In this document: one piece after another, positions 10,913 through 59,869 of the stretch | How positions within the stretch are numbered: position 1 is the first letter of the stretch | Layout: every line of letters starts with the position of its first letter | From: Microbacterium sp. H83 | GTDB taxonomy: Bacteria > Actinomycetota > Actinomycetes > Actinomycetales > Microbacteriaceae | Length of the DNA stretch: 64,000 nt | Assembly: GCF_001650405.1 (NCBI RefSeq) | Contig: NZ_LWCU01000012.1 | Span: 62,001-126,000 of the forward strand | Reading direction: 5' to 3' | Program-made: the position numbers and the translations under genes | Notes under the pieces: model-generated | Told to the model about the DNA's origin: nothing | Database searches by the model: none | The model's input: only the letters and a program-made list of their open reading frames with translations

Positions 10913-10918
10913 CATTCG

Positions 10919-22409: not shown

Positions 22410-22420
22410 GGATGGGATCG

Positions 22421-32398: not shown

Positions 32399-32447
32399 GC
32401 GACGAGCCCATCTAAGCGCTCCTCTCGCGCCTCCCGTGGTTACGCCG

Positions 32448-32461: not shown

Positions 32462-32533
32462 GTCAGATTACATGAGTACCATTTCCGTCGCTGCAGGCCA
32501 TCGAGCCTCTCCTCCCCCATGTATTATGTGCGT

Positions 32534-43883: not shown

Positions 43884-44882
43884 TCAGGAGGTGAGCCCGG
43901 AATACGAGTGGAGGCCGGGGAAATAGATGTTCACGATCGTGAAGTTGAACAGCACGGCTGCGAATCCGACGATCGACAACCAGGCCGATCTGGAACCGCG
44001 CCATCCCCGAGTCGCCCTGGCGTGGATGTATCCCGCATAGAGAACCCAGATCACGAAAGTCCACACCTCTTTGACGTCGAATCCCCAGTAGCGCCCCCAC
44101 GAATCGTTCGCCCAGATCGCTCCGGCGATGAGTGTGAAGCTCCAGAACATGAATCCGACGATGGTGAACCGGTAGGCCAGAGTCTCGAGAGTCTCCGCCG
44201 AGGGGATCGTGGTGAGGAAGCGGGGGGATTTCTTCGCCTTGCGCATCACCGAGTCGGCCGCCAGAAGGCGCTCACGACGACCCTGCATGAGCTGCGTGAC
44301 CGACACTCCGCAGGCGAGCGCGAACAACGCCGTGGCGAGTGAGGCGACGAAGACGTGGATCACGAGCCAGATGCTCTTCAGCGGGTCCATCAATGGGGCC
44401 ACCTCGACATAGAAACCGAGTGTCGCGCCGCCGAGGAGCAGCACGATCATGCCGAGAAGGAAGGCTCCGAGGAAACGCAGGTCGTACAACCGCAGCACCA
44501 CGAGGTAGACGGCGACGATGAGAAGCGTCCCCGTGAGCGCGAACTCGTACATGTTGGCCCAGGGAACACGTTCGGCGGCGATACCGCGGCCGAGCGTTCC
44601 ACCGAGGTGGAACAGGAATGCGAGAACGGTCAGCGATGTCCCGATCCGGGCCCAGACCCGGCGTGGTGAGTGCGCGTCGCTCCCGGCGCTCGCAGGGGGT
44701 GCGGGCTCCGGCGAATCGCCTCTGTTCCCGCCAGCGGCGACCAATGTTCGCGCCGGCGCAGAGGTCGACACCGCACTGCGTTGCGCGAGATCGATGGTGT
44801 ACGCCGCGAAGGCGAGAACGTACGTGGCAATCGCCGTCCAGACGAGGAGGAGGGAGATGCCGTCAAGGCTGAGATCGGTCAT
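43884..44882 (-). CDS. ccsB: cytochrome c biogenesis protein CcsB/ResC
   Basis: A 332-residue membrane protein with about eight helices, the heme-handling half of the system II synthetase. The WWD-type motif is WANDSWGRYWGFDVKEVWTF near residue 260, and flanking His residues (FLFHLGG, VIHVFVAS, LHSYSG) can bind heme. With ResB it carries heme across the membrane and joins it to CxxCH of apocytochrome c. Its start overlaps the resB stop by ATGA. Last gene of the minus-strand run. Confidence 0.92.
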   Translation of the reverse strand: MTDLSLDGISLLLVWTAIATYVLAFAAYTIDLAQRSAVSTSAPARTLVAAGGNRGDSPEPAPPASAGSDAHSPRRVWARIGTSLTVLAFLFHLGGTLGRGIAAERVPWANMYEFALTGTLLIVAVYLVVLRLYDLRFLGAFLLGMIVLLLGGATLGFYVEVAPLMDPLKSIWLVIHVFVASLATALFALACGVSVTQLMQGRRERLLAADSVMRKAKKSPRFLTTIPSAETLETLAYRFTIVGFMFWSFTLIAGAIWANDSWGRYWGFDVKEVWTFVIWVLYAGYIHARATRGWRGSRSAWLSIVGFAAVLFNFTIVNIYFPGLHSYSGLTS

Positions 44883-46588
44883 GACGGGGTCCTTTCGGTG
44901 GAGTCGTGGGAATGGTCTGTGTCGTCAGCGGGTGCGGGTCGTGCGTCGACCGAAGTCGAGTGTCGGCGTGCGAGTTCATCGATGGCGCGCTGCAACGTCG
45001 GGTCGTCCCCTCGTGCGAGGCCCGCGTACTCGACGCGCACGCCGTCTTCCACTGCGCGCGCTTTCACCCATACACGTCGCCGTGGTACGAACAGTCCGGC
45101 GAACAAGCCGGCCATCGCGATGACGGAGAAGACGAGCACTCCCCCGCTGCTGGGATCCTGTTGAATCTGCAGCGACGCGAATCGCTTCACCGGTTGCATC
45201 TCCTCGTCGATCTCCCAGGTCACAGATCCCCACCCGTTCGGGAGGTCGACAGTGTCCCCGGGACGGAGCTCCAGCGATTCGACACCGCTGTCGCCTCCGG
45301 TCTCCTGGTCGAGACCGCTCACGTCGAGGGTGTAGACGGAGCGCGGCGTGCCGTCGTCGATTCCGAGATCGCCGCTGAAGACGTTGAACGTGAGTACCGG
45401 GTCCACGACATCGGGATAGATCGATGTGAATGCTCCGGACGGGAGGGTTCCCTGGGTGGGGTAGAAGAAGCCGACGAGCCCGATCTGCTTCGGCAAGCCA
45501 TCCGGGATCTTGATGATGCCCAGCGACGTCATGTTCGAGTCCTGTGGGAGGAACGGCTGCGACTCGCTGAAGACGATGTCGCCGTCGCCGTTCTTCACAG
45601 TGAGCGTCGGAGCATACCCGTTTCCGAGCAGGTAGATGCGGTCGTTCGCGACGGTGATCGGATAGTTCACCCGCACGCTCTGCTCGCTGTCCTCCTGCCC
45701 CGGCTGACGGACGGTGACCTGCGCATCGAAGTTCTCGGCCTGGCCCGCGCCGGGGGTGCCCGGCAGTCGATAGGCCACCCGGAAGTCGTCGAGCGTGAGC
45801 GAGTACGGAACGAGACCGGCGCCGTCGACGAAACGCCCCGGGTTGAACGACGAGTAGTCACTGAGAGCGTTGACGAAGGTCGTTCCTTCGACGACGACGC
45901 GCTGACCGGTATAAGCGAATGATCCGCCGACGGCGACAGAGACGAGAACTCCCACCAGCGCGACGTGGAAGACGAGATTGCCCGTCTCCCGGAGGTAGCC
46001 CCGCTCAGCCGAGACGGAGAAGGAACCTCGCTGGTCGTAGCGTTCGACGCGATAGCCGGACCGGCTCAGCATGTCGGAGGCCGTGGCGATGACACGCTCC
46101 GCATCGTCACCGTCCGCGGCGACCACCAGTTCGCGATGGGCGGGAAGTCGCGACAGCCGCGACGGTGTCCGCGGGGGACGCGAGCGCAGCGCGACATAGT
46201 GATGCTTCGCGCGTGGGATGACGCAGCCGATCAGCGATAGGAACAGCAGAAGGTGGATGGCGGAGAACCACGGTGAGATGTAGACGTCGAACAGTCCGAG
46301 GGCGTCTGCCAGAGGAAACATCTCGGGATTGTTCCGCCGCCATTGCACGACGCCGTTCGGGTCTGCGCTGCGCTGCGGGAACAGAGAGCCCGGGATGGCA
46401 GCGATGGCCAGCAGAAGCAGAAGCAGCAGTGCGGTGCGCATGCTCGTCAGTTGGGTCCACCCCCAACGCAGCCATCCGACGACGCTGAGTGAAGGGTTGG
46501 TCACCTCCGCCGCAGCGGCGGTCTCAGCGTGGTCGCTTGGTCGGAGCGGATCGCTTGCGGTGTGGGAGTCAGAGCGGGAGCGGGACAT
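44879..46588 (-). CDS. resB: cytochrome c biogenesis protein ResB
   Basis: A 569-residue protein with three membrane helices in the first 220 residues (TALLLLLLLAIAAIPGSLFPQRS; IHLLLFLSLIGCVIPRAKHH; LVFHVALVGVLVSVAVGGSFAY), a large extracytoplasmic domain and a last helix near residue 500. The His in GNLVFHVALVG is the conserved heme-interacting one. It works with CcsB. The gene overlaps ccdA by 20 nt. Confidence 0.93.
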   Translation of the reverse strand: MSRSRSDSHTASDPLRPSDHAETAAAAEVTNPSLSVVGWLRWGWTQLTSMRTALLLLLLLAIAAIPGSLFPQRSADPNGVVQWRRNNPEMFPLADALGLFDVYISPWFSAIHLLLFLSLIGCVIPRAKHHYVALRSRPPRTPSRLSRLPAHRELVVAADGDDAERVIATASDMLSRSGYRVERYDQRGSFSVSAERGYLRETGNLVFHVALVGVLVSVAVGGSFAYTGQRVVVEGTTFVNALSDYSSFNPGRFVDGAGLVPYSLTLDDFRVAYRLPGTPGAGQAENFDAQVTVRQPGQEDSEQSVRVNYPITVANDRIYLLGNGYAPTLTVKNGDGDIVFSESQPFLPQDSNMTSLGIIKIPDGLPKQIGLVGFFYPTQGTLPSGAFTSIYPDVVDPVLTFNVFSGDLGIDDGTPRSVYTLDVSGLDQETGGDSGVESLELRPGDTVDLPNGWGSVTWEIDEEMQPVKRFASLQIQQDPSSGGVLVFSVIAMAGLFAGLFVPRRRVWVKARAVEDGVRVEYAGLARGDDPTLQRAIDELARRHSTSVDARPAPADDTDHSHDSTERTPS

Positions 46589-47315
46589 TGATGATCACCT
46601 GCTGAAGTTGGGACATGAGTGACGTCCACGCCCCAGAGACCATGAGGATCCCGAGGGCGATGAGCATCGCTCCACCGATGAGATTGAGAGCGCGGACATG
46701 GCGTCGGAGGAACGCCACGGACGAGGACGCCCATCCCCACCCCGCCGCGAGGATCAGGAAGGGGATGCCCAGACCGAGCGAGTACGCGAGACCGAGCAGG
46801 CCCGCTCGTGCCGGGTCGCCGAGGTTCCAGGACATCGAGATGATGGCCGCGAGTGTCGGTCCGATGCAGGGCGTCCACCCGACGCCGAGCGCGAACCCCA
46901 GAAGCGGAGCTCCGACGAGACCGGCCCGGTTGCCGAGACGGAGGCGCACGGATCGCTGGGCGATGTTGAAGACTCCGATGAAGACGAGTCCCATGACGAT
47001 GATGATCGCCCCGAACACGCGCGTGAGGATGTCCGCGTATCGCAGCAGGACGAATCCGAATGTCCCTCCGAGGATGGTCACCACCACGAAGACCACGGTG
47101 AAGCCCGCGATGAACAAGGTGACCCCCAGCATCAACCGGCGGCGTGCCGGACTGCGGCTCCCCGTGCCGGGCGGGATCGTTCCGCCGAGATACCCGAGAT
47201 ATCCCGGGACGAGCGGCAGCACGCATGGGGAGACGAAGGAGACGAGTCCCGCGAGGAGGGCGACGGGGAGCGCGAGCCAGAGAGCGCCGTCGACGATGAG
47301 TGCACCGGGACTCAC
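46569..47315 (-). CDS. ccdA: thiol-disulfide reductant carrier CcdA
   Basis: A 248-residue six-helix protein. The redox Cys pair lies in FVSPCVLPLVPGYL (helix 1) and GWTPCIGPTLAA (helix 4). It moves electrons from cytosolic thioredoxin to the extracytoplasmic TlpA/ResA protein so that apocytochrome c (or metal-binding thiols) stay reduced. The GTG overlaps the TlpA stop by GTGA. Confidence 0.94.
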   Translation of the reverse strand: MSPGALIVDGALWLALPVALLAGLVSFVSPCVLPLVPGYLGYLGGTIPPGTGSRSPARRRLMLGVTLFIAGFTVVFVVVTILGGTFGFVLLRYADILTRVFGAIIIVMGLVFIGVFNIAQRSVRLRLGNRAGLVGAPLLGFALGVGWTPCIGPTLAAIISMSWNLGDPARAGLLGLAYSLGLGIPFLILAAGWGWASSSVAFLRRHVRALNLIGGAMLIALGILMVSGAWTSLMSQLQQVIINVPLPL

Positions 47316-47968
47316 GGCATCTTCTCCTCGAGCACGCCGTCGACGAGGGTGGCGAGGATCGACGGGCTTTCCAGCTGACCGATCACGCGGGCGGCGACTC
47401 GCCCGGAGCGGTCCAGCACCAGAGTCGTCGGCGTCGCCTGGATCGGCGTCACCTGCACGAACGCCAGCTTGACCTTGCCGTCGTTCACGTCGATGACACT
47501 CGGGTAGGTGACGCCGTTGTCCTTCGCGAACGACAACGCAGTCGCGGGCTGGTCGTAGGTGTTGACCCCGAGAAAGGCCACGCCCTCGTCGCGGTAGTCC
47601 TGCCAGACCTGTTCGAGGAACGGCGCCTCGACGATGCAGGGCCCGCACGCGGCGTACCAGAAGTTCACCACGAGGACCCCGCCTCGGTAGTCGTCGGACG
47701 ACACGTTCTCCTCGGTCTCGGTGACGCCTTCGAACTCGACCGGTTCACCACGCTCGGCTTCAGGGATCTCGATGACTTGGAAGTCACCGGCGATGAAGCC
47801 CTTCTCGTTGCCGTCCCGATACTGCTGAGAGAGGGAATCATTGGATGCGCAGCCCGCCAGCGCGATGAGAGCAGCCATCGACATGGCGGCGACTACGGTG
47901 CGACATCGACGACGTCCTCGCGAGGTACTGACCGCGGCGGGCGGTGGGTCGGCGGATCTGGAGTGCAT
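47312..47968 (-). CDS. TlpA/ResA-like thioredoxin lipoprotein
   Basis: A 218-residue lipoprotein (lipobox LAGC around residue 37-40) with a thioredoxin domain carrying CGPC in YAACGPCIVEAP and the cis-Pro region in VTPIQATPTTLVL. It receives electrons from CcdA and reduces substrates outside the membrane. As a lipoprotein it would depend on LspA and Lnt, both encoded a few kb upstream. AGGA precedes the ATG. Confidence 0.92.
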   Translation of the reverse strand: MHSRSADPPPAAVSTSRGRRRCRTVVAAMSMAALIALAGCASNDSLSQQYRDGNEKGFIAGDFQVIEIPEAERGEPVEFEGVTETEENVSSDDYRGGVLVVNFWYAACGPCIVEAPFLEQVWQDYRDEGVAFLGVNTYDQPATALSFAKDNGVTYPSVIDVNDGKVKLAFVQVTPIQATPTTLVLDRSGRVAARVIGQLESPSILATLVDGVLEEKMP

Positions 47969-48175: not shown

Positions 48176-48667
48176 TCAGGTCCGCGAGACGCGGAGTTGC
48201 AGCAGGGTGGATGCTGTCACCCGGACACCTATCCGCGGGAGCACGGGGGCGATTGTGGCGAACCTCCACACGATGTCCTTCGTCGACGATGGCCGACGCC
48301 ATCGGGCGGTGACAACGAGAAGCAGGGCACCGCAGAGGACTCCGACCGCGCACACAACGGCGCCCAGTCCCTCGCCCGGCGAGGTGGCCGCCTTCCCGGA
48401 TGCCCCGGAGACCACCTCGGATGGATCGTCGGCTGCTCCGAAGTGGGCTGTCGGGTCGGGGCCGGAGGCTGAGACCGCCGTCGGAGGGACAGGCGCCGCG
48501 CTGACCGTCGCGCACGCGACGCCGAGCATCAGCAGCATCGACAAGAGCACGAGAAGGACAAGACTCGAGGAGAAGGGCGCACGCGGATGAGCCGGTATGG
48601 TCAGGGGTGTCTCCTGTGCCGTTCTCGCGCTGCCGGCACCGACGAGAGGACCCCGCCGCTCATCCAC
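48176..48667 (-). CDS. DUF6153-type small membrane protein (copy 2)
   Basis: About 163 residues if started at GTG 48667, which has AGGAG 7 bp upstream and overlaps the M23 stop by 8 nt. It has two membrane segments (SSLVLLVLLSMLLMLGVACA, and after a Ser/Asp loop GLGAVVCAVGVLCGALLLVV). The second starts around a Cys as in the other copies, and the protein ends in LRVSRT. The loop has fewer His/Cys than copy 1. It is followed by the TlpA-CcdA-ResB-CcsB cassette. Function unknown; the start is less certain than the rest. Confidence 0.6.
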   Translation of the reverse strand: MDERRGPLVGAGSARTAQETPLTIPAHPRAPFSSSLVLLVLLSMLLMLGVACATVSAAPVPPTAVSASGPDPTAHFGAADDPSEVVSGASGKAATSPGEGLGAVVCAVGVLCGALLLVVTARWRRPSSTKDIVWRFATIAPVLPRIGVRVTASTLLQLRVSRT

Positions 48668-49616
48668 TCGTCTTCTCCTGCAACCAGGAGACGGGGTCGA
48701 GCTTGCCGTTCTTCGTCGACACCTCGAGGTGCAGGTGCGCACCGAAGCTGCGGCCGGTGTTGCCGACTCTTCCGACCACGGTCCCCGCCGAGACGGTCTG
48801 GCCTTCGCGGACGCCGAGCGATCCGTTCAGCATGTGCGCATACCGACTGAACACCGTCTGGCCGTCCACGGTGCTCTCGATGTAGACGGTCACCCCGAAA
48901 GCTCCGCCGTTCTCGGTCGCGATGCGCACCGTTCCCCCCGCGATGGCCCGGATCTGAGAGCCCTCCCCTGGCGTGAAGTCCGCCCCTTCATGCATCCGTC
49001 CCCATCGAGGTCCGAAGTTGGACGACGTGGGAACGCTGACGGGGAACGGCCACTGGACGTCTGCATCCGGGGCCGACTGCAGTGATCCGTTGAAGTAGCG
49101 GATCCCGGCGGCAGCTGCGAGTTGCGGAGCCGATGAGACGCTGTAGTCGTTCTCCCGACGAAGGTCCACTGCTGCGGTGTCCCCGGGCACCACGAAGGCC
49201 TGGATGTCGTCGCTCGCCAGGTTCTGAGTGGAGGAGAACCGTGCGTTGGTATCGGCTCTGGATGCTTCGATGGTCGCCGCGGGGATGGTCATGCCGACCA
49301 TGAAAGAGGAAGCGACTGCGAGTGTGCCGACCGCGATGAGCTTCTTTCCGATGTTCCGGGCGCGGGACCCAGCAGGCGAGGGCTGTCCACGTGGGGCGTC
49401 GTCCTCAGGCGCGCCCTGGATCGCGACCGTCGACGCCGCCGCATCCGGCTCGCCGAGTGGTGTGGACTCGCGAGCGCGCCGGAGCTCTGCGCGAGTGAGT
49501 TGCGGAATCCTATCCGTTGCGGCCGCGGCTCTCTGGTATCGGAGGGCCGCGCGAGTGAGGGCCGGTTCACGTCGAGCGTCAGTAGTCGCCGCCTGGCGAG
49601 TTTCATGCGCGGTCAC
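48660..49616 (-). CDS. M23 (LytM) peptidase, membrane-anchored
   Basis: A 318-residue protein. A cytosolic Ala/Arg-rich lead (about 85 residues) precedes one membrane anchor (KKLIAVGTLAVASSFMVGMTI). The C-terminal LytM domain has its ligands in MHEGADFTP and AHLHLEVST. It ends with the sequence PVSWLQEKTSG. It trims or remodels peptidoglycan. Its GTG overlaps the second lnt gene by GTGA, and it is coupled to the DUF6153 gene downstream, so it is part of the island operon. Confidence 0.87.
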   Translation of the reverse strand: MTAHETRQAATTDARREPALTRAALRYQRAAAATDRIPQLTRAELRRARESTPLGEPDAAASTVAIQGAPEDDAPRGQPSPAGSRARNIGKKLIAVGTLAVASSFMVGMTIPAATIEASRADTNARFSSTQNLASDDIQAFVVPGDTAAVDLRRENDYSVSSAPQLAAAAGIRYFNGSLQSAPDADVQWPFPVSVPTSSNFGPRWGRMHEGADFTPGEGSQIRAIAGGTVRIATENGGAFGVTVYIESTVDGQTVFSRYAHMLNGSLGVREGQTVSAGTVVGRVGNTGRSFGAHLHLEVSTKNGKLDPVSWLQEKTSG

Positions 49617-51223
49617 TGTTCGACCTTTCGGGTTGGGTCGTCGTAGAGGTGTGCAAGGCGAGTCGAACGCCGACGAGAGTGGATGGCGAGCCCGACGATG
49701 GCCCCGATCCCGAGGATGACGATGCCGGGCGCGGTCCACTGGTCGACGAAGATCCCCGGTGCCGTGCCGGTGCGCAGGGGAACGTCCGTGATCTCAGCGG
49801 CGACCTCATCCACGCCAGCGGTCGCGAGGATGCTTCCGTCCGGGGCGATGACCTGACTGGTGCCGACGGTGGACACGTTGACCACGCTCTTCCCGGTCTG
49901 GATGGCGCGCATGCGAGCGAAGGCGAGCTGTTGGAGGTTCTCATCCGATCCACGGAAGTCGGCGTTATTGGTCTGAAAGACGAAGAGTCCCACGTCTCGT
50001 TCGGCGCCGGCGCGGATGACGCCGTCGAAGATGACGTCGAAGCAGATCGCCAACCCGATGGCGGTCTTCCCCACTGTGACGACGGGCGCATTGGTGCCCG
50101 GTGTGTATTCGCGTTGGATGAGCCCGACGAGATCCGGCGCCAACTGCTCATAGAACCATCGGTCGGGGACGTACTCACCGAACGGGACTGGATTGACCTT
50201 GTCGTGGATCTGGGGATCGAGCGAGTCCTGCGTCCAGACGAACGAGGTGTTGAACGTCTCGGCGCCTCTCGTCGTCGCGGCATTGCCGAGGAGGGGGCTC
50301 CCCGACCTGGTCACGATCTCATCCAGCACAGCGCCGGCTCGTTCGTCTCGGAAGGGGTCGAACTCCGCCGATCCTTCCGGCCAGACGAGCAGATCGGTCT
50401 TCCGGTCGAGGAGCGGTTCCGTCGCGTCGACTTGAGCGCTCAGCAGCTCTCCAGGGGATCGGTCGTCGAAGTATCCGGAGGGGCCGTTGCCCTGAACCCA
50501 CCCGACTCGGAAGGCGCCCGCATCCGTCGTCGGGAACTGCGGGATGACGGTGAGCCCGACGAGGAGAAGCACAGCAGGCGCTGTGGCGGGCAGAAATCGC
50601 AGCCCCATGCGCAACCACTGCACGACGCTGGCCGAGATCGTCGCGATGACGAGCGAGAGACCGGTCACTCCGACCCAGGAGGCGACCTCGGGGAAGGGCC
50701 CCTCCACCTGTGTCATCCCGAGGCGCGCCCACGGGAATCCCCCGTATGGCCACGATCCCAGCGTTATCTCCCGCCCGACCCAGAGCACGCCGATGAGTAC
50801 GGGAACGACGATGACGTGAAGGACGGCGCCGCGTCGGAGTCGACTCGTCCACTTGTACGCCAGCGCTATGGGGATCGCACCGATTCCGAAGATCATGGAC
50901 TGAAGCCCGACCAGTGCGATGCGGGGTACCGGGCCGAGAAACTCACCGACCCAGTCCAGGTGCAGCGAGTAGAAGGTCACGCCGAACACAAGACCTACGA
51001 GCAGCGCTCCACCGATGCTGCGCCCGACGGTGGTCGCCAGGGCGACGATGACGCTCACGAATGCGAGCGGCCACCAGCTGAGCTCTGGGCTCGCGAGGTC
51101 CATCGCGAGCCCGGCGGCCGCGGCGAGCGGAACTGCGAGCCACAGTGTGATGAGTGGACGCATCGGATCGGTCTCCGTCGAGCGGGAACTGCGTAGGCGC
51201 GTGGATGTGAGTGTCTCAGTCAT
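49613..51223 (-). CDS. lnt: apolipoprotein N-acyltransferase Lnt (island copy)
   Basis: A 536-residue second Lnt. The triad is Glu in LLVWPEGSAE, Lys in IHDKVNPVPFGEYVP and Cys in AICFDVIFDG. It shares long blocks with the chromosomal copy (SWPYGGFPWARL, VQGNGPSGYFD, QTNNADFRG, LQQLAFARMRAI), so it is a close actinobacterial paralogue, not a distant import. It differs in the N-terminus and ends in a basic tail. It lies two bases from ctaG. It could serve lipoproteins made by the island. Confidence 0.92.
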   Translation of the reverse strand: MTETLTSTRLRSSRSTETDPMRPLITLWLAVPLAAAAGLAMDLASPELSWWPLAFVSVIVALATTVGRSIGGALLVGLVFGVTFYSLHLDWVGEFLGPVPRIALVGLQSMIFGIGAIPIALAYKWTSRLRRGAVLHVIVVPVLIGVLWVGREITLGSWPYGGFPWARLGMTQVEGPFPEVASWVGVTGLSLVIATISASVVQWLRMGLRFLPATAPAVLLLVGLTVIPQFPTTDAGAFRVGWVQGNGPSGYFDDRSPGELLSAQVDATEPLLDRKTDLLVWPEGSAEFDPFRDERAGAVLDEIVTRSGSPLLGNAATTRGAETFNTSFVWTQDSLDPQIHDKVNPVPFGEYVPDRWFYEQLAPDLVGLIQREYTPGTNAPVVTVGKTAIGLAICFDVIFDGVIRAGAERDVGLFVFQTNNADFRGSDENLQQLAFARMRAIQTGKSVVNVSTVGTSQVIAPDGSILATAGVDEVAAEITDVPLRTGTAPGIFVDQWTAPGIVILGIGAIVGLAIHSRRRSTRLAHLYDDPTRKVEQ

Positions 51224-51225: not shown

Positions 51226-52164
51226 TCAGGTGTCCCGCTCGCGCAGCTTCTCGAGATAGGCGTTGTACTCATCGAGCTCGGAGGACCCGTGCTGGTCCTC
51301 GTAGCGGTCTTGCGCCTGGGACCGTGCCGTGTCGTCCCGGAACCATCGATGCATGACGTAGATCAACATCAGCAGCGTCGGCGCTTCGCCGTACGACCAT
51401 GCGAGTCCCCCGGCGAGCCTCTGATCCTCGATGGGATCCAGGCCCATCGCCTGCGTGGGAGCGACGAAGTGCGTGATGAGCATGGTGGTCGACATCATGA
51501 GAAACACGCCGAAGAACGCATGCAGGGCGGCTTCGGCGAATACGTCCAGGGCGCGACCGCCATGGCTGAGCCGGACGGGAAGCGGATCGGAACTGAGGAT
51601 GGGGATGGTGAAGATGATGCCCGCCGCGAGGAAAGCCACTTCCAGTGCTATGTGACCTGTGGTCGAGCCTAAGATCGTGTCCGCGAGCCCTGCTAGGTAT
51701 AAGCCATAGAACGCCGCGAGGTAGAGCGGGAGCGCGGTCCACGGGCTCAATGTCCACCGAGCGAGTCTGCTGCGCAGGCCGGCATGAGCCATGGTCAGAA
51801 CCACACGCCCCATTCCCCGGTGCGGGGTCGCGCGAAGCAGCAACGTCCCCGGGGATCCCAAGACGAGCAGTGGCGGGATCGCCATCATCAAGGTGAGCTG
51901 CTGGAACATGAACACCGACATCAGCGCGTAGCCGTAGTTCTCGACCGCCAGTCCGGTCGTCGCCGCAAGACCTGCGCACCCGCTGAGGAAGCTGAGTGTG
52001 CGCCACACTGACCATCTCCGACCGTGCACCCACATCCGAATCGCGCCGACGGAGTAGAAAACCGCAAGGAGCCCTGCGACTGCAGGCAGCACGGGAAGCG
52101 CCCCCGGGACCACGGCGAAGTAGTCGGGGAAGGAAGGTGGGGCATCGGGGATCCACAGCGTCAT
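51226..52164 (-). CDS. CtaG-type cytochrome oxidase copper assembly protein
   Basis: A 312-residue polytopic membrane protein of the CtaG/Caa3 assembly family, with at least seven helices. Marker segments are MSVFMFQQLTLMMAIPPLLVLGSP, LALEVAFLAAGIIFTIPILS, and AEAALHAFFGVFLMMSTTMLI with conserved His/Met. Family members help to load copper into cytochrome oxidase. A second such domain is fused to CopD at 56426-58324. No oxidase subunit gene is near. Confidence 0.85.
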   Translation of the reverse strand: MTLWIPDAPPSFPDYFAVVPGALPVLPAVAGLLAVFYSVGAIRMWVHGRRWSVWRTLSFLSGCAGLAATTGLAVENYGYALMSVFMFQQLTLMMAIPPLLVLGSPGTLLLRATPHRGMGRVVLTMAHAGLRSRLARWTLSPWTALPLYLAAFYGLYLAGLADTILGSTTGHIALEVAFLAAGIIFTIPILSSDPLPVRLSHGGRALDVFAEAALHAFFGVFLMMSTTMLITHFVAPTQAMGLDPIEDQRLAGGLAWSYGEAPTLLMLIYVMHRWFRDDTARSQAQDRYEDQHGSSELDEYNAYLEKLRERDT

Positions 52165-52213
52165 CGACGGGCGCTCTCCGTGATGTCGAGGTGTGGAGCA
52201 CGTGAGAGGAACA

Positions 52214-52549
52214 TCATGGACGCGGGAACTTGATGAGACTTCCGGCGACCAGGAACACGACCGCCGCAGCAGCCTGAACCCCAACCCACACCGGTCCTTC
52301 GAACGGGAATGGTGCCACGGGGTTCCACAGAACCGCGATGGCGACGAACACCGGCGCCCACCACCAGTGACGCGCCTGCACAGCAAACCACCCCACGATG
52401 ATGGCCAGGATCGACGTCACGTAGAGCACCACAGCTGCCCATTCGGTCGTCAGCAGCACAGGCGCGAGGAACAGGACCGCTGCGGCAATGAGGCTGGGCG
52501 CGAGCGCATTTCTCTGGTAGGTGGAGGGAGTGCGCTTCTTCTGCGTCAT
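52214..52549 (-). CDS. small membrane protein, DUF6804-like
   Basis: A 111-residue protein with three or four membrane segments (SLIAAAVLFLAPVLL; AVVLYVTSILAIIVGWFAV; WAPVFVAIAVLWN; GVQAAAAVVFLVAGSLI). The layout YQRNALAPS at the start and EGPVWVGVQ near the end resembles the DUF6804 family as I recall it; this is not verified. Function unknown. Its start overlaps the lspA stop by ATGA, so the two are co-translated. Confidence 0.6.
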   Translation of the reverse strand: MTQKKRTPSTYQRNALAPSLIAAAVLFLAPVLLTTEWAAVVLYVTSILAIIVGWFAVQARHWWWAPVFVAIAVLWNPVAPFPFEGPVWVGVQAAAAVVFLVAGSLIKFPRP

Positions 52550-53085
52550 ATCCGGTCACTCATCTCGTTGTCGTTCAGATGTGAGGAAACACTCTGAGGG
52601 TCCTCAGGGGTGTTGCGTCGTCGGCGTAAAAGGCCGATGGCGAGCACAACAGCCCCCACCGCCAACGCGACGTCGGCGATATTTCCGATGAAAAGGTCTG
52701 AATAGGCGAGAAAGTCCGTCACGTACCCGCGACCAAAACCCGGCGGCGCGAAGAGGCGGTCAAGCACGTTGCCGATAGCTCCCCCGAGTATGAACCCGAT
52801 ACCGACCGCCCACCATGCGGTACGGGACCGGATGGCGCTGATGAAGAGGGCGACCGTTGCGATGACGCCCACCGCCGTAAGCAACGGGGTCGCGCCGGAG
52901 CCGAACGAGAGGATCGCGCCGGGGTTGAACGCGAGCTGCAGCCCGAAAAGGTCACCCAACAGCGGTATACGCTCCGTGGTGCTCAGCTCCGCGAGGGCCA
53001 TGGCCTTCGACACCTGGTCAATGGCAACCGTCGCACCTGCAACCGCGAAGGCGACCGCGTTTTTCGGAATCCGGGCGTTCATCAT
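52546..53085 (-). CDS. lspA: signal peptidase II LspA
   Basis: A 179-residue aspartyl protease with four membrane helices that cleaves lipoprotein signal peptides. Conserved elements: TVAIDQVSKAMAL, FNPGAILSFG, GGAIGNVLDRL (first catalytic Asp) and VTDFLAYSDLFIGNIADVAL (second Asp). ATG 53085 or 53082 is likely used; GAAGGG lies before them. Together with the nearby lnt it gives the island its own lipoprotein-processing pair. lspA genes are also known beside Cd/Zn ATPases in other metal islands. Confidence 0.92.
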   Translation of the reverse strand: MMNARIPKNAVAFAVAGATVAIDQVSKAMALAELSTTERIPLLGDLFGLQLAFNPGAILSFGSGATPLLTAVGVIATVALFISAIRSRTAWWAVGIGFILGGAIGNVLDRLFAPPGFGRGYVTDFLAYSDLFIGNIADVALAVGAVVLAIGLLRRRRNTPEDPQSVSSHLNDNEMSDRI

Positions 53086-53489
53086 CACCCTTCGATCTCG
53101 GTGTCCGCCGCCGCGCGGTCTTCGCGGCGTCGCTTCCGCCCGGCGACTGCGACACCGACGGCTCCCGCGGCGAGAACGAATCCGATACCGATTACGAAGA
53201 TGATCCCGAGGAACCCGAGATCGTCCCGCTCTACTGGTCGCTCCCCGTTCTGTCTTTCGTGACGTTCCTTGTCCGACTCAGTCTCGGTCGGAGTTCCCGA
53301 AGGGGTAGGTGCTTCCGAAGGGCTGGGACTTGCGGTCGGCGACGGCGTCGAGGACACAGCCGGCGGCACGGTTTCCGTCGCCGCGGCCGCGGACGTTGCC
53401 TGCGAGCCCAGCATGAAGGTCGCGGCCGCCACCAGCAGCACCGCAGCGACTGCGTGTTCCAGTCTCTTAGTGATGTTCTGATGTCTCAT
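53085..53489 (-). CDS. small secreted Pro/Ser/Thr-rich membrane protein
   Basis: A 134-residue protein with an N-terminal signal peptide (VAAVLLVAAATFMLGSQATSAAA), a low-complexity loop rich in Thr, Pro, Ser and Glu (about residues 40-85) and a C-terminal membrane helix (LGIIFVIGIGFVLAAGAVGVAVAG) followed by RKRRRED. It looks like an extracytoplasmic tether or scaffold. No domain is recognised. It overlaps the lspA start. Confidence 0.6.
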   Translation of the reverse strand: MRHQNITKRLEHAVAAVLLVAAATFMLGSQATSAAAATETVPPAVSSTPSPTASPSPSEAPTPSGTPTETESDKERHERQNGERPVERDDLGFLGIIFVIGIGFVLAAGAVGVAVAGRKRRREDRAAADTEIEG

Positions 53490-53529: not shown

Positions 53530-54525
53530 TCAGGGGCGTTTCATGATCCGCCGTGCGATGAGCATCGCGTCGCGACGTGCTCCGTCGAAGGTGTCGGCGT
53601 CCGGCTTGCTGTACAGCGGCATGCCGGCGATGAACAGACCAGGCACCGCTGTCGTTCCGCGTCCGCGAGGCGAGTCTCGAACGTCAGTCGGGAGCCAGGT
53701 GTCGGCGGGCAGATAGCCGGTCGCGAAGATCACCGACTGCGGAGCGGTTCGCTGACCATCTTCGAAGATGATGTGTGCTCCGTCGACGGCCACCGCAGCG
53801 GGCATCAACGTGACGCCGAGCGCCTCCCAGTTAGGAGAGTGTGATGCCCTACCGTCGCGCAACTGCCGCCCCATCCAGCGGCCCCGTCCCGCTCCGGGAC
53901 TGTGACCTTGCGGCGACCTGGACGACAACGTGACGCGGTGGGAGCTGCTGAGTTCGCGCGCAACCTGCTGTCCGCTGTGACCCGCCCCGATGATGAGAAC
54001 GTCGCCCGCGGGAATCTGTGTCGGGCCACGATAGTCCGCGCTGTGTAGGACTATGCCCGGCGCCTGCGTCTCTACGGCCCAGCTAGGAATACGCGGGCGA
54101 CCTGCGGATCCGCTCGCGCAGACGATATTGCGAGTCTGAACCTGCCCCTCATTGGTGGAGAGGAGGAGGGTCGACCCGTCGCCTAGACGCTGCACGCCGG
54201 TCGCACGAACGCCCCACGTGGTGGTGATGCGCAGCGAGGACTCCACCGACAGGAGATGCTCTTCGATCTCGCGCGGCGAGGGGTGGCGGTAGGGGTCTCC
54301 GGCGAGATGACGTCCTGCTACGGCGCTGCGTCCCGCTTCGGTCAACAGCTTCATCGATGACCAGCGATATCCCCACGAGCGTCGACCATCGCAGTCACTG
54401 TCGATGACCGCGAAGTCCCGCTGCGGAACCAGTCCCATTCGCGCGAGCTCCGAAGCGACGGAGAGCCCGGCGTGGCCCGAGCCCACGATGATGACCCGAC
54501 GGTGAGACAGCCCTGCTAGCGTCAC
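53530..54525 (-). CDS. FAD/NAD(P)-binding oxidoreductase (flavin monooxygenase-like)
   Basis: A 331-residue two-dinucleotide-domain flavoprotein. FAD motif IVGSGHAGLSVASEL at the N-terminus, NAD(P) motif LIIGAGHSGQQVARE at about residue 165, and the late ATGYLPADTWLP typical of the flavin-containing monooxygenase and thioredoxin-reductase-like group. The GTG overlaps the DsbA-like gene stop by GTGA. Substrate unknown; the context suggests a thiol or metal(loid) redox role, but that is inference. Confidence 0.8.
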   Translation of the reverse strand: MTLAGLSHRRVIIVGSGHAGLSVASELARMGLVPQRDFAVIDSDCDGRRSWGYRWSSMKLLTEAGRSAVAGRHLAGDPYRHPSPREIEEHLLSVESSLRITTTWGVRATGVQRLGDGSTLLLSTNEGQVQTRNIVCASGSAGRPRIPSWAVETQAPGIVLHSADYRGPTQIPAGDVLIIGAGHSGQQVARELSSSHRVTLSSRSPQGHSPGAGRGRWMGRQLRDGRASHSPNWEALGVTLMPAAVAVDGAHIIFEDGQRTAPQSVIFATGYLPADTWLPTDVRDSPRGRGTTAVPGLFIAGMPLYSKPDADTFDGARRDAMLIARRIMKRP

Positions 54526-55187
54526 TGCGCCTCGCGTGCAGCAACGATGGCGTTCTCGAGGTCGTCGTACCGCTCGAGTGTGACGGGCTCTCCGTCGACG
54601 AAGAAGGTCGGTGTACCGCTGACCCCCAACGCCTGGCCGTCGTTGTAGTCGAGGTCGACACGTTCGACTGTGCCCGAATCTGCGATCGCCGCGTCGTACG
54701 CGGCCATGTCCAGGCCGATCTCCTCCGCGAATCCTCGGAAGACGCTCGCCCGGGACTCCTGAGCTTCTCCCCACTGCGACTGGGTCTCGAAGAGCATGCG
54801 GTACATCTCTTCGAGACGGCCCTGTTGAGCCGCTGCTTCCGCCGCGTACGCAGCGTTCCGGGAATTCAGATGACCGGGCAGCGGGAAGTACCGGATGACA
54901 TACGTGATCTCTCCGTCGTACCTCTTCCGCAGATCTTCAACCACGGGATAGAAAGCACCGCACGCTTCGCATTCGAAGTCGAGGAACTCCACGATGGTCA
55001 CGGCCCCCTCTCCCCCGTCATCGAGTACGTAAGAGTTGTCTCGGAGCACCTGAGGCGCGGTTCCCCCGTCCTCGGACGCGGGCGGCGCGGAGTTCCTTTG
55101 ATTCACGAGGACGAAGATCACAGCGACAACGATGAGGACGATGGCAACGGCAACAGCAACGAGGCCGGCTTTCACGGCAGGTTTCAT
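54522..55187 (-). CDS. DsbA-family thioredoxin-fold oxidoreductase
   Basis: A 221-residue membrane-anchored protein: an N-terminal helix (AVKAGLVAVAVAIVLIVVAVIFVLV) and a DsbA/Thioredoxin_4 domain with active site FECEACGAFYPV, and cis-Pro loop LGVSGTPTFFVDG. It would form or shuffle disulfides outside the cytosol. GGAG is well placed before ATG 55187. Coupled to the flavoprotein gene. A DUF6153 gene lies directly upstream. Confidence 0.88.
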   Translation of the reverse strand: MKPAVKAGLVAVAVAIVLIVVAVIFVLVNQRNSAPPASEDGGTAPQVLRDNSYVLDDGGEGAVTIVEFLDFECEACGAFYPVVEDLRKRYDGEITYVIRYFPLPGHLNSRNAAYAAEAAAQQGRLEEMYRMLFETQSQWGEAQESRASVFRGFAEEIGLDMAAYDAAIADSGTVERVDLDYNDGQALGVSGTPTFFVDGEPVTLERYDDLENAIVAAREAQ

Positions 55188-55262
55188 TGGGTACTCCACA
55201 GACAGGTGACACGGACGAAGGTCGAGAAACGGCCCGCGCTCGTTGCGCGGTCCTTCGGTGTG

Positions 55263-55772: not shown

Positions 55773-56429
55773 TCACTCGGACCTTTTCCGTCGACGGCTC
55801 AAGATCGAGATCGTCGCGATTGTCAGGCCACCGAGAACGATGACCCCCGCGACGATGCCAAGAACGACGACGATCTCGCCGGAAGCGTTCGGCGCTTCGC
55901 TGTCCTCGAGCGGCTGCGGTGTCGAAGTGACATCGTCCTCCATTGGGGCCGGGGTGCTGGTGGGTGCCGCTGCAGGTTGAGTGCGCGTGTCCTCGTTCCC
56001 ACACGCCGGGGAATCCCAGCCGAGTGCGACGGACGCGTCCGGAGATGCCACGTACTCGAACTGATACGACTCGGAGATAGGGTGCCCGTCGCTGGATACG
56101 GCGTTCCACAACACGGTGTAGGTGCCCGAGGCACCGAGGGCGACGGGGGTTGTGAGCACATTGAGCTCGATTGTGGAGCAGGCGGACTCGTAGAAGAGCC
56201 CGTCAGCCCCCTGAACCTGCGCGAAGCTGGTCTGGCTGAAGTCGATGAGTTCACCGCTAAAGGTGAGAGCGACCGCATCCAAGCTGGTCACTGTCTCGCC
56301 AGCAGCGGGTACGGCATCAGTCAAGTTGTCATGAGCGACTGCTGGGGCGGCGCTGAGCAGCGTGACGACGAGGGCCGTGGCGAACGCGGCGCCCCCGATC
56401 CGGCGGATTCGAGCGGACAGGGATGTCAT
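55773..56429 (-). CDS. CopC-like copper resistance protein
   Basis: A 218-residue exported protein: signal peptide ending AVA and mature start HDNLTDAVPAAGETV, where the N-terminal His is the known Cu(II) ligand of CopC. The beta-barrel includes LWNAVSSDGHPISESYQFEY, the conserved His region. A Pro/Thr linker and a C-terminal membrane helix (EIVVVLGIVAGVIVLGGLTIA) anchor it, as in YobA/CopC of Gram-positive bacteria. It overlaps copD by ATGA. Confidence 0.9.
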   Translation of the reverse strand: MTSLSARIRRIGGAAFATALVVTLLSAAPAVAHDNLTDAVPAAGETVTSLDAVALTFSGELIDFSQTSFAQVQGADGLFYESACSTIELNVLTTPVALGASGTYTVLWNAVSSDGHPISESYQFEYVASPDASVALGWDSPACGNEDTRTQPAAAPTSTPAPMEDDVTSTPQPLEDSEAPNASGEIVVVLGIVAGVIVLGGLTIATISILSRRRKRSE

Positions 56430-58324
56430 GAGTGAACCTTTCGAGAAGCGTGGGACAGGATCTGCCCCGAGGCTGAGAATGTTGGAGAAGAAGACAGTGA
56501 GCGGCTGACTGCGATCCCGACGAAGACCAACAGCGGGCCGGAGACCAGGATGACGATGCCGGCGATTCGCTGGTCCGCCATCGGCTCGAGACCCCATTGG
56601 CGGCCCATCGCCCCGAACCAGTTGGCGGCAATCAGGCCGCTCTGCAGAGCGACCCAGCCACCGACGCCGACGAGCGCGGCGGCAGGACCCACGATGGCCG
56701 TCCACCACGTCCAATGACCGCGCATAGCCCTTCGACGAAAGAGCAGAGAAAAGAGAAGGCTCCCGACGAACAGAAGACCAGCGACGCGCAGCTCATGCAG
56801 CAACGGGTCAGCCAGGGTGCTTCGGAGCACGCCCGTCGCCGACGTGGACCACAGAACAAGCGCGAAGGCGCAGACCGTGGCAACGGGGCGTGCGATGAAG
56901 CGTATGACGCTCGATCCGGCAGCGGCCTGCAACCACTCGCGAACTCCACGACTTCCATCAGTACGACTGGTGATCGTCGTCATCGCTAGCTGCCAAGGCG
57001 CACCGAGAACAAGGAAGAAGGGAACCACGAGCAGCAACAGCACTCGCCCCACCGCGTCAATACTGTGCAGGTACTCGGCGTAAACCGCGACGGCCCCGCC
57101 GTTGGCCCACGCCAGCAACACCATACCCAGCACCCACGCCGACGTTCGAGACGCTTGCCACTCCTCGCCACGCTGCCGCAGCCGGCGAACTCCCGCCAGA
57201 TAGAAGAAGATCCCGAACGCCGCAATCAGCAGCCACAGCACATTCACATCGTTGCCCGCAAACCATCGAGCCAATGTGAGCTCAGGTGGCAGAGGTGCCT
57301 CAGTGAGAATCTCTGCCGGCGTAGTCAGCACCGGGGCCGTAGTGTCGGCCGGCGCAGGGGTGCGCGCGAGCGCCGCTGCAGCACCGCTGGCCACGCCCAT
57401 GATGGCAAACTCGATGCCCACGAAGGTCCAGAACGGCGCACGCTCTCCGACACTCCGCCGGATGAACCAACGTCGGTGCGCCACTCCGACGAGCCCAAGC
57501 AACGTCAGCGCGACCACCTTGAGCATGAGCACGACACCATACGCACTGGCGAGGTCATTCCAGCCCCGCACCGAGGCAATCGTACGAGCGACCCCAGAGG
57601 CGGTCACAATGACGAACGCCACGAGCGCGATGGTTGAGTACCGCTCAACAATCACACGCAACCGATGCTCCCGCAGATTCGGCCTCAAGTACGCGAGCGC
57701 TATCAGCCCACCCATCCACACGGCGGCGCTTGTGATGTGCAACACCAAGGCCATCACGGCTGCGTCGTGGTTCGCGAGACTACCCGAATGGCCCTGTGTC
57801 GCCATCGGGACCAGCGATGTGAGGGAGAGAACGACTAGGACCAGCGTGGCCCCCCAACCGCGGAAGGCGTAGGAAATCACGGTGATGACGGCAGCCATCA
57901 CCGTCGTGATCAACCAGACACGACCGAGCTCGGTTTCAAGGAGAAACCGACCGAACTGCTGTCCGAAAGCGGGACCCAGTGATACTTCGGGGTTGAACGA
58001 CGACAGGAACGTGAGGTACCCGGTCGTTCCGCTGCTGATGGTGAGGGCGGCAGCGCCGATGGACGTGATGTCCAGCGCGATGTCGAACTCCTTCTCGCCA
58101 CGTCGCAGGGCGAACGCGGCAAGAACGACCGATCCTGCCATGACGGCGGCGCTTAGATTGACGATGAACTTGGCGGCCGGAAGTCCCCACCGAACGACGG
58201 CGCCGGGATCACTGGCCACGCGCGGGTCGGCGCCCCCTCCGACGACGAGACCCAAAAGTAGAGCGACAACGGCTGCCGTCAACAAGAGCGCGGGACCGAT
58301 AACGCGCGTGCTTCGCACGCTCAT
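56426..58324 (-). CDS. CopD-CtaG fusion membrane protein
   Basis: A 632-residue polytopic protein. Residues about 1-330 form a CopD domain (GHSGSLANHDAAVMALVLHITSAAVWMGGL; VLMLKVVALTLLGLVGVAHRR). Residues about 340-632 form a CtaG/Caa3 domain (AEYLHSIDAVGRVLLLLVVPFFLVLGAPWQL). It pairs with CopC to move copper across the membrane and may pass it on for oxidase assembly. The fusion is known in actinobacteria. It starts inside the DUF3515 stop (ATGA). Confidence 0.9.
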   Translation of the reverse strand: MSVRSTRVIGPALLLTAAVVALLLGLVVGGGADPRVASDPGAVVRWGLPAAKFIVNLSAAVMAGSVVLAAFALRRGEKEFDIALDITSIGAAALTISSGTTGYLTFLSSFNPEVSLGPAFGQQFGRFLLETELGRVWLITTVMAAVITVISYAFRGWGATLVLVVLSLTSLVPMATQGHSGSLANHDAAVMALVLHITSAAVWMGGLIALAYLRPNLREHRLRVIVERYSTIALVAFVIVTASGVARTIASVRGWNDLASAYGVVLMLKVVALTLLGLVGVAHRRWFIRRSVGERAPFWTFVGIEFAIMGVASGAAAALARTPAPADTTAPVLTTPAEILTEAPLPPELTLARWFAGNDVNVLWLLIAAFGIFFYLAGVRRLRQRGEEWQASRTSAWVLGMVLLAWANGGAVAVYAEYLHSIDAVGRVLLLLVVPFFLVLGAPWQLAMTTITSRTDGSRGVREWLQAAAGSSVIRFIARPVATVCAFALVLWSTSATGVLRSTLADPLLHELRVAGLLFVGSLLFSLLFRRRAMRGHWTWWTAIVGPAAALVGVGGWVALQSGLIAANWFGAMGRQWGLEPMADQRIAGIVILVSGPLLVFVGIAVSRSLSSSPTFSASGQILSHASRKVHS

Positions 58325-58890
58325 GGGAGGTCTCCTGAGCCACTTGTCGTGGGAGCGTCGTCGTCGTCCGATGCACCTTCATCAGGCGCAGAACAGGCAG
58401 CCGTTTTCGGGAGCATCTGCACCGCCGGCGCGAGTGCCTGCAGCACAGTGTCGGCAGACAGGCGAGTCGTGTCGACGTACGCCTGGGCCGCAGGTTCCCG
58501 TCCGTACGTCGTCAACCGCAGGTTCGGCAGTTCTTCGTCGTCAACGATCCAGTCGACGGAATTGATAGTCACGCATTGCAACGTCGTCGGCGCTGGCGGT
58601 TCAAGGCCGCAGGCGAAGACAACAGCGGTGGGGTCTCCCCACGCGGCCGTCGCCTGGCCATCGGTCGTCCGGCTCTCGAGCTCGCCGACAGCATCCGGAA
58701 GGCGTACCGATACGTCAGCGCACTCTGGGGCGTTCGCATCAGGGGCAGGTTTTGTTGCGACAGTTGCCGCGCATCCGGACAGAACCGCGAGCGATCCGAC
58801 GAACGCCACAATGCATCGCGCTGTCTGCCGCAATGCGGTGCGACGATGCGAGACGACCTCGGCGGCGCGTTGGTAAGGGGTGTTCTTCAA
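58321..58890 (-). CDS. DUF3515-family lipoprotein
   Basis: A 189-residue exported lipoprotein (lipobox LSGC about residues 37-40). The mature part matches DUF3515: residues PECADVSVRLPDAVGELESRTT, AWGDPTAVVFACGL and the WIVDDEELPNLRLTTYGREPA block. The C-terminal tail is Asp/Ser-rich. Function unknown. The TTG start at 58890 is supported by GGAGAG five bases upstream. It is the first gene before CopD-CopC. Confidence 0.75.
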   Translation of the reverse strand: MKNTPYQRAAEVVSHRRTALRQTARCIVAFVGSLAVLSGCAATVATKPAPDANAPECADVSVRLPDAVGELESRTTDGQATAAWGDPTAVVFACGLEPPAPTTLQCVTINSVDWIVDDEELPNLRLTTYGREPAAQAYVDTTRLSADTVLQALAPAVQMLPKTAACSAPDEGASDDDDAPTTSGSGDLP

Positions 58891-58973
58891 GTTTTCTCTC
58901 CAGGCTGTCGACGACGCGCGTCGATCTGCATCCGCGTCAACGCACGGACGAAAACGGCATAAAAGCCGGAGAG

Positions 58974-59390
58974 TCAGGTTCGAGACACCTGCAACTCGGA
59001 GGGAGCATGTCGCAACAGATGCAGATGACGCACGCTCGGGCGCACCGTGACCCTCAGGGCGAACTGCTCCGCGCGCACAGACGTGAGTGGTCTGGTTCTC
59101 AGGAACCGTCCGAGCACCAGCATGCCGAAGAACACACCGACCATGCATGCGACAGCGACCATCTCGGACGATCCTGTCAAAGCTTGAGAGGAGCTGTCTT
59201 CATCTGTGTGCTCGTGGGCGACGTACGAGATTGTCGTCGAGGCGGACGCCGAAGCCGTCGCCTCAGCATGAAGGTTGCTTCCGATTCCGAGAACCACGAG
59301 CAGCGCAACGATGAGGCTGAAGATGAATCGCGTCGCCGACGAGCGGAACGGGACGAGCGCCGAACCATCGGAGTCAGTTGGCGGCATCAT
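58974..59390 (-). CDS. DUF6153-type small membrane protein (copy 4)
   Basis: A 138-residue protein with two membrane segments (FIFSLIVALLVVLGIGSN and MVAVACMVGVFFGMLVLGRF). The outer loop contains AHEHTDEDSSS and the C-terminus is LQVSRT. The ATG at 59390 is chosen because TAGACT (59398-59403, minus strand) ends 7 nt before it. It is divergent from the CmtR gene, so both may share a control region, and it precedes the DUF3515-CopD-CopC cassette. Confidence 0.65.
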   Translation of the reverse strand: MMPPTDSDGSALVPFRSSATRFIFSLIVALLVVLGIGSNLHAEATASASASTTISYVAHEHTDEDSSSQALTGSSEMVAVACMVGVFFGMLVLGRFLRTRPLTSVRAEQFALRVTVRPSVRHLHLLRHAPSELQVSRT

Positions 59391-59464
59391 CTCTATCAGT
59401 CTAACCGCCCCTTCTGCCGTCAACCTCAACGCACTTGGCCGACCTCGGACGGTCGACCACTAGG

Positions 59465-59488
59465 ATATGTCAGTGGGTGATGTATAGT
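59465..59488 (+). promoter_or_regulatory. CmtR promoter with imperfect dyad
   Basis: TATAGT (59483-59488) ends 6 nt before the CmtR ATG, a leaderless arrangement. An imperfect dyad ATATGTCA-GTGGG-TGATGTAT (59465-59485, six of eight pairs) overlaps it and is a candidate CmtR operator. The opposing TAGACT of the DUF6153 gene is 60 bp away. Confidence 0.45.
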
Positions 59489-59494
59489 CATTGT

Positions 59495-59869
59495 ATGCTG
59501 ACCATTGCCTCCCGTCTCGACGTGATGAACAGGCTCGGGCGGGCGATGGCCGACCCGACACGTTCGCGCATCCTGCTCGAACTCCTTTCTGGGCCGGGGT
59601 ACCCGGCCCGCCTTTCGGAATCGCTGGGCTTGTCCCGCACGAACGTGTCGAACCATCTGGCGTGTCTGCGCGGGTGCGGGATCGTCGTCGCGACCCCGGA
59701 AGGACGCCAGACGCGGTACGAGATCGCAGATCCTCACGTGACGAAGGCGATCACGATTCTGGTGAACACGGTGCTCGCCGTCGACGACGGTGAGCCCTGC
59801 ACCGACGAAAACTGCGACGTCCCCCTGTGCTGCGCACCGACCGACTCGAACCCGGAGGACAACCGATGA
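59495..59869 (+). CDS. cmtR: CmtR-type ArsR metalloregulator (Cd/Pb sensor)
   Basis: A 124-residue repressor. It follows M. tuberculosis CmtR closely: LGRAMADPTRSRILLELLSGPGYPARLSESLGLSRTNVSNHLACLRGCGIVVATPEGRQTRYEIAD. The Cd/Pb ligands correspond to the two Cys of LACLRGCG and the Cys in GEPCTDENCD. The tail adds LCCAP. It should repress the ATPase until Cd or Pb binds. It overlaps that gene by ATGA. Confidence 0.88.
   Translation: MLTIASRLDVMNRLGRAMADPTRSRILLELLSGPGYPARLSESLGLSRTNVSNHLACLRGCGIVVATPEGRQTRYEIADPHVTKAITILVNTVLAVDDGEPCTDENCDVPLCCAPTDSNPEDNR

Follow-up and report, generated by a model that had tools for sequence, protein, structure and literature searches.

The stretch analysed here, a window of 64,000 nucleotides from contig NZ_LWCU01000012.1 of Microbacterium sp. 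H83 (positions 62,001 to 126,000), carries two genes for apolipoprotein N-acyltransferase (Lnt), one at a housekeeping locus and the other inside a metal-resistance island of a kind that recurs across genera. The island gene (49613..51223, minus strand) encodes a complete protein of 536 residues in which Pfam recognises both the membrane domain LNT_N and the nitrilase domain CN_hydrolase, and which scores 207.5 bits against the NCBIfam equivalog TIGR00546 (cut-off 132.9). The housekeeping copy, an open reading frame (ORF) at 22280..23944 on the plus strand whose real start is probably slightly downstream, lies in a helicase/RbpA context, has the Pfam matches and reaches 217.6 bits with the same model. 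A whole-genome search at E ≤ 0.001 returned exactly these two matches. An earlier note had described them as two complete enzymes with intact triads some 26 kb apart, which proved correct (the distance is 25.7 kb, and the Glu-Lys-Cys triad is present in both); its further description of them as closely similar is only moderately true, their mutual identity being 51%.

The island Lnt can be aligned to solved Lnt chains across almost its whole length. In that alignment, and in a 142-row alignment of Cys-type sequences from which rows with hits below 1200 nt were excluded (fragments and weak nitrilase rows were never fetched), Glu283, Lys342 and Cys394 correspond to the catalytic Glu-Lys-Cys triad, and these three residues and Glu350 are invariant in 142/142 rows, both window copies included. 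In Escherichia coli, according to PMC3850990, the triad consists of E267, K335 and C387, and W237, Y388 and E389 are likewise required; the positions of Y388 and E389 are occupied by Phe and Asp in both window Lnts, and that of W237 by Phe or Tyr, all of them outside the curated family definition. The same paper has mycobacterial Lnts, the functional one included, retaining only five of the seven residues. By family, the island gene of the window is an ordinary Lnt, and N-acylation activity is predicted for it.

The gene forms part of a nearly gapless run on the minus strand with the order lspA-DUF6804-ctaG-lnt-M23. The genes for LspA (signal peptidase II, 52546..53088) and a DUF6804 protein (52214..52549) share an ATGA overlap, 49 nt separate the latter from the ATG at 52164 of ctaG (caa3 assembly factor, 51226..52164, in an ORF of 51226-52386), ctaG stops 2 nt before lnt, and the GTG start of the M23 peptidase gene (48660..49616, ORF 48660-49739) overlaps the lnt stop as GTGA. 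The run with LspA and M23 peptidase reported in the earlier note is therefore real, with DUF6804 and CtaG standing between LspA and Lnt, and the metal setting is borne out by the genes around it. On the downstream side, also on the minus strand, lie a TlpA/ResA thiol-disulfide oxidoreductase with the lipobox LAGC, which is a likely island substrate (47312..47968), CcdA (DsbD_TM; ORF 46569..47648), ResB (44879..46588; the native copy is 60% identical) and CcsA/CcsB (Cytochrom_C_asm, 43884..44882). Upstream on this strand are an FAD/NAD(P) oxidoreductase (Pyr_redox_3; ORF 53530..54774, true start downstream), a DsbA-like thioredoxin (54522..55199), CopC (ORF 55773..56714, true start downstream), a CopD-CtaG fusion (56426..58324) and a DUF3515 protein (58321..59148), for which an LSGC lipobox is seen by eye (it is unlisted in the lipobox scan, the ORF start being too far upstream). 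The island further holds an ArsR-family metal regulator (59435..59869, plus strand), a P1B ATPase with an SPC motif (59827..61959, plus strand) and a cation diffusion facilitator (CDF) efflux protein (62054..63163, minus strand). The ATPase belongs to the cadmium family, since it scores 482.6 bits with the cadmium model (cut-off 313.5) and 381.9 bits with the copper model, which is under the cut-off of 397. An ORF antisense to the ArsR gene (59426-60088, minus strand; neighbour query h220) has no Pfam match and was left out of the kit-gene counts. Two small membrane proteins (48176-48742 and 55263-55715), likewise free of Pfam matches, have C-termini that look similar by eye, and a family of such proteins is present in 25/80 island loci.

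All 149 Microbacterium genomes searched, our own included, have an Lnt match, and 46 besides our own have more than one. From these 46 genomes 98 places were fetched and classed as housekeeping if a helicase and/or RbpA was present and as islands if at least two kit genes were, which gave 44 housekeeping places, 48 islands and six undecided ones (L107, L165, L168, L181, L182 and L184). Outside the housekeeping locus, 48/54 places are thus islands, and an island lnt copy is found in 39 of the 46 genomes. An island-type gene, a P-type ATPase (P-ATPase), occurs near the housekeeping locus in one case out of 44. When 20 of the 102 single-match genomes were inspected, picked among the most island-like listed, RbpA stood beside lnt in all 20 and the helicase as well in 18, with a P-ATPase nearby in one (L199).

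For gene content, 80 non-redundant island loci were set against 52 housekeeping loci. CtaG and TlpA are each found in 57 of the former and none of the latter, LspA, ResB and DsbA in 53 and none, P-ATPases in 52 and one, CcdA in 49 and none, CcsA in 46 and none, M23 in 43 and none, ArsR in 38 and none, CopC in 33 and none, and CDF in 29 and none; these counts describe a pattern among related loci and are no significance test, and the absences are imperfect, as the ORF picker recovers Lnt itself in 79/80 island and 42/52 housekeeping loci, though tblastn agrees. A cytochrome c maturation gene or CtaG/CopC is present in 73/80 island loci, and a P-ATPase or CDF in 65/80. The association of lnt with these islands is solid; the mechanism discussed below is what we infer. 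In Actinomycetota, Alphaproteobacteria and Deinococcota alike, M23 peptidases accompany the island copies (48660-49616 in the window; the plasmid loci L191, L193, L196, L218-L221, L226, L227, L264, L266 and L267).

A tree of 142 Lnts places the island copy within a clade of 71 rows from several genera, made up of 69 island rows, two of low context and none from housekeeping loci (support 100 in the Shimodaira-Hasegawa-like approximate likelihood ratio test, SH-aLRT); a smaller tree, built with a mixture model, has this main group on one side of a branch supported at just 63, where the larger tree reaches 100. A second set of eight rows, six of them with island context, is nested in the housekeeping tree (SH-aLRT 99), and seven of its eight loci contain a CPC-type ATPase. 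A single grouping of both island groups is rejected by the approximately unbiased (AU) test (p = 0.0103, 47 rows, with the groups defined after inspection of a tree). As judged from these trees, lnt has entered islands through at least two recruitments. The phylogeny of the two window copies, a check that the earlier note had proposed, excludes a close local duplicate, as the island copy sits in its own clade, and a recent local duplication is ruled out as its origin. The loci of the second recruitment (L165, L168, L169, L171-L173 and L175-L177) are copper-type islands with CPC ATPases, some of them with CcdA, CcsA and an FAD oxidoreductase. Leucobacter chromiisoli, L. chironomi and Tessaracoccus caeni share a 21.4-kb stretch that includes lnt at 99.87-99.93% identity, the two genera belonging to different families and orders; at this level of identity, lnt-bearing islands evidently transfer horizontally.

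The pattern extends beyond the genus. From an order-level sample of 119 genomes, 12 stretches of seven genomes were initially fetched. Five of these genomes have two full Lnts, and in 5/5 one copy stands at RbpA while the second is surrounded by TlpA/CcdA/ResB/CcsA/CtaG/DsbA genes; metal genes accompany the second Lnt in four of the five, and one of these loci (L231) is a Kineococcus plasmid already met in the plasmid survey. We also inspected 23 plasmid copies, which were hand-picked rather than random (18/278 records found with the window Lnt as query and 5/239 with a Ser-type query, introduced below); five of them lie in Roseobacter islands that resemble one another. The copies come from Actinomycetota, Pseudomonadota and Deinococcota, and in 20/23 the stretch includes a metal transporter, a copper chaperone or a metal regulator; LspA is annotated at 11/23, and Lgt at three others. 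The suggestion of the earlier note that the second copy gives stress-time capacity fits as a category, with extra Lnts recurring in metal islands and beside metal genes on these plasmids. L,D-transpeptidase genes lie near lnt and P-ATPases on Pseudosulfitobacter plasmids (L220 and L221).

Other loci of the same genome help to place the island. It has two ResB, five LspA and two Lnt matches and a single Lgt, and the island TlpA-CcdA-ResB-CcsB set is its second, the native one lying on another contig (G000:C45, G000 being this genome). Three further metal loci have an LspA, and none of the three has an Lnt; two are without any kit gene, one locus (L240) being a contig of just 6.4 kb, and L241 has only a 114-residue C-terminal fragment of CcsA. 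On this evidence, Lnt appears to accompany the assembly kit and not efflux as such. The LspA of L241, which lies 4 kb beyond the left edge of the window (G000:C12:57502-57954), is found with cadD, a P-ATPase, ArsR and the CcsA fragment, and LspA also stands beside P-ATPases on contigs C36 and C30. Within the window, the left end (1577-2917, 6620-7690, 9011-10279 and 10918-11001) holds the copper-binding lipoproteins DUF305 and CueP, a zeta-toxin-like protein and, adjoining a tRNA-Leu, an integrase of phage type, and looks like another integrated metal element. A second pair of ArsR and P1B ATPase (SPC motif) is located at 32177-34833, between both lnt loci.

A related subfamily carries Ser at the position of the catalytic Cys. 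In two further genomes of the order (G232 and G258), which share the same island, the second match is a distant one (25%) beside cadD, ArsR, LspA, TlpA, CcdA, ResB and CcsA; it scores 137.2 bits with TIGR00546, narrowly above 132.9, and has retained both Glu residues and the Lys. The Ser type was also found in three Corynebacterium plasmid copies, located in copper islands with a multicopper oxidase, TlpA, CcdA, ResB, CcsB, M23, a P-ATPase and a metal-sensitive regulator, and in two Pseudonocardia copies outside metal islands. Examples are L247:7251-9053 (G258) and L246, the plasmid loci L264-L268, and L286-L302. At E ≤ 1e-40 a relative is present in 17/296 genomes of the phylum, with Ser at the aligned motif in 17/17 by eye, and several kit genes lie near it in just one of the 17 chromosomal loci (L293); the subfamily is not an island speciality. 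A scan of viral_contigs gave no relative of the Ser-type protein. PMC3850990 reports that the mycobacterial BCG_2279c has Ser in place of Cys387 and failed to replace the main Lnt, and that E. coli Lnt C387S makes the acyl-enzyme yet shows no detectable Lnt activity; its authors allow for activity under particular growth conditions. Because of these results, there is more doubt about the function of the Lnt-like gene in Ser-type islands than in the island of the window. The Ser-nucleophile relative could be a thiol-free stand-in or have a different activity.

Building on the protein family and its catalytic residues, on the gene order and its recurrence, on horizontal transfer and on at least two recruitments, all described above, and supposing co-expression, metal induction, clients and a benefit, we propose that the second Lnt carries out N-acylation within a transferable envelope-assembly kit on soft-metal islands, where it would give spare capacity under metal stress. 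We assign this reading a probability of about 0.48. The kit would be carried by soft-metal (Cd/Zn/Cu-type) resistance islands, with lnt probably co-transcribed with lspA and ctaG. Metal stress would impair the resident lipoprotein pathway, which relies on exposed thiols, and the island Lnt would add capacity to complete lipoproteins for as long as that pathway is impaired. The likely clients would be the TlpA and DUF3515 proteins of the island together with host lipoproteins, foremost CtaC, the CuA subunit of the one oxidase found to bear COX2. The same respiratory branch would be served by TlpA-CcdA-ResB-CcsB for haem c, by CtaG/CopC/CopD for copper and by DsbA for disulfides.

No CtaC match was obtained in the 80 actinobacterial island loci, and a CxxCH scan of the picked ORFs of at least 90 residues in 79 loci gave no plausible c-type cytochrome, three matches being judged spurious by eye. 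The sole COX2 match of the host carries the lipobox ALAGC, and the only CtaC of the host is accordingly annotated here as a predicted lipoprotein; the native TlpA likewise has a lipobox. On these grounds host proteins are the likely clients. CtaC of C. glutamicum bears diacylglycerol, according to PMC8795186. More tentatively, actinobacterial soft-metal islands might carry an assembly line for the respiratory oxidase branch of the host that is transferable and largely without clients of its own. It would cover haem c insertion, copper delivery, disulfides and, through LspA and Lnt, the cleavage and N-acylation of lipoproteins, and Proteobacteria and Deinococcota might have evolved comparable kits; we hold this wider picture to be possible, with the odds against it.

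Lipoprotein maturation has been described as a copper target (PMC6538781), and so, to go by the title of a 2015 study by Durand, has the assembly of c-type cytochromes. In E. coli, copper impairs lipoprotein acylation, and the cutE locus is lnt, as stated in PMC6538781; in Rubrivivax, PMC7283390 has cadmium lowering cytochromes and cbb3 oxidase and, like copper, hitting porphyrin synthesis. E. coli cutE/lnt and the island Lnt are alike in domains, equivalog score, catalytic residues and, through cutE, the link to copper; the island gene differs in being a second copy, in its own clade, on a mobile metal island where LspA, CtaG and M23 are its neighbours. The closest parallel appears to be lit2 and lgt2, which PMC8275575 and PMC7387801 place in copper-induced mobile operons of Listeria and Enterococcus, with the proposal that N-acylation hinders copper coordination. 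In both systems a duplicated N-acylating enzyme stands beside another lipoprotein-maturation enzyme in a transferable metal-resistance locus. Here, however, the enzymes are Lnt and not Lit (by family for the island protein, the rest of the island not having been searched for Lit) and LspA and not Lgt, cytochrome c and oxidase assembly genes are added, and metal induction is known only for the Lit2 side. BCG_2279c and Streptomyces Lnt2 (PMC3850990) are also second actinobacterial Lnt-family genes, and BCG_2279c shares its Ser with the Ser-type island relatives; the window copy differs in retaining Cys and in its metal island. The native cytochrome c system II locus has its counterpart in the second TlpA-CcdA-ResB-CcsB set of the island, which differs in accompanying metal and lipoprotein-maturation genes on islands that cross families. 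The LspA paralogues adjoining Cd/Zn/Pb P-type ATPases, which we take to be PbrC-like, resemble the island in having LspA near ArsR and a P-ATPase, as in the three further loci of this genome, and differ in being without Lnt.

A number of observations weigh against the proposed kit. Within the stretch examined, LspA is missing from 27/80 island loci and the respiratory partners from 7/80, and beyond the genus L236 has cytochrome genes without a metal gene. On Streptomyces pFRL4 the stretch offers cupredoxin and DUF305 proteins alone and no metal transporter or regulator, and two related Pseudonocardia plasmids have no metal transporter, metal regulator, cupredoxin or DUF305 nearby. Possible clients are present on some plasmid islands, namely cytochrome c peroxidase on three Roseobacter stretches, ctaD on Gordonia pKB1, and multicopper oxidases. 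Copper mimics Lgt depletion in E. coli (PMC6538781), yet the genome has just one Lgt, and it lies outside the window. By analogy with BCG_2279c and E. coli C387S, islands of the Ser type may serve some purpose other than N-acylation. A metal-hardened, Cys-poor island enzyme is unsupported, the Cys content being 0.47% in the island copy and 0.37% in the housekeeping copy. The plasmid exceptions, the possible Roseobacter clients and the Ser-type relatives led us to lower our confidence in the kit from 0.50 and in the wider assembly line somewhat as well.

Among the alternatives, we consider it unlikely that the island Lnt is dedicated, maturing together with the island LspA only island lipoproteins (TlpA, DUF3515, DUF305 and similar). 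Such a role, which the earlier note had raised, is in line with the tight run with lspA and with the lipoboxes of 50/58 island TlpA and 10/10 DUF3515 cluster members. The native TlpA has a lipobox too, however, so that no special provision for the island TlpA is called for and host clients are just as likely, and the other metal loci of the genome have LspA or DUF305/CueP lipoproteins without Lnt. Somewhat less probable still is a chemical capping role, in which extra N-acylation would remove the free amino group that, with nearby sulfur, would bind copper on the surface of the membrane, a mechanism put forward for Lit2; that proposal, the copper-lipopeptide interaction described in PMC7387801 and PMC8275575 and the recurrence of Lnt in copper and cadmium islands speak for it, but it leaves the constant TlpA/CcdA/ResB/CcsB, CtaG and DsbA partners unexplained, the host already owns an Lnt, and the ATPase of the window is of the cadmium family. 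That lnt simply rides with the island without benefit seems very improbable: islands do move as blocks, but the triads are intact, there were at least two recruitments, and similar partners recur in three phyla.

The earlier note had also suggested different substrates or acyl donors, and some or all island Lnts might indeed use these or act otherwise than by N-acylation. Trp242 is present in 71/71 rows of the main island clade and 1/52 housekeeping rows, and residue 343, beside the catalytic Lys342, is apolar (V, A, I or L) in 68/71 rows of that clade (Val343 in the island Lnt) and Arg in 39/52 housekeeping rows, the remainder being T, S, A or V; the Ser-for-Cys exchange in the related subfamily of some islands points the same way. 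None of the separately recruited island Lnts has Trp242, however, and their residue 343 is R, K, Q or H, save for one Met (Cryobacterium) and one Ser; the catalytic E, K, E and C are unaltered in all Cys-type rows; and the Ser subfamily lies mostly outside islands. No specificity switch emerged at a level of 85% in both groups, and a looser measure yields clade-specific positions. Altered chemistry in the main island clade is thus possible from its residues, but it is no condition of island life, and the suggestion finds no general support. We rate a new function as improbable, if slightly less so after the checks that lowered our confidence in the kit.

In the open-access literature searched we found no published account of an island Lnt in Actinobacteria, and its setting is recurrent, mobile and little described. 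Similar groupings in other phyla suggest that maintained protein assembly may belong to toxic-metal survival. If the wider assembly line is real, metal resistance would include the import of spare post-translational machinery, beyond efflux. Islands with replacements for lipoprotein maturation and cytochrome assembly, if that is what they carry, would point to the envelope processes that soft metals damage first. They would also offer, in a soil bacterium, a genetic test of why lnt first emerged as a copper-tolerance locus, and metal stress would be a possible setting for second Lnt homologues that lack a clear role.

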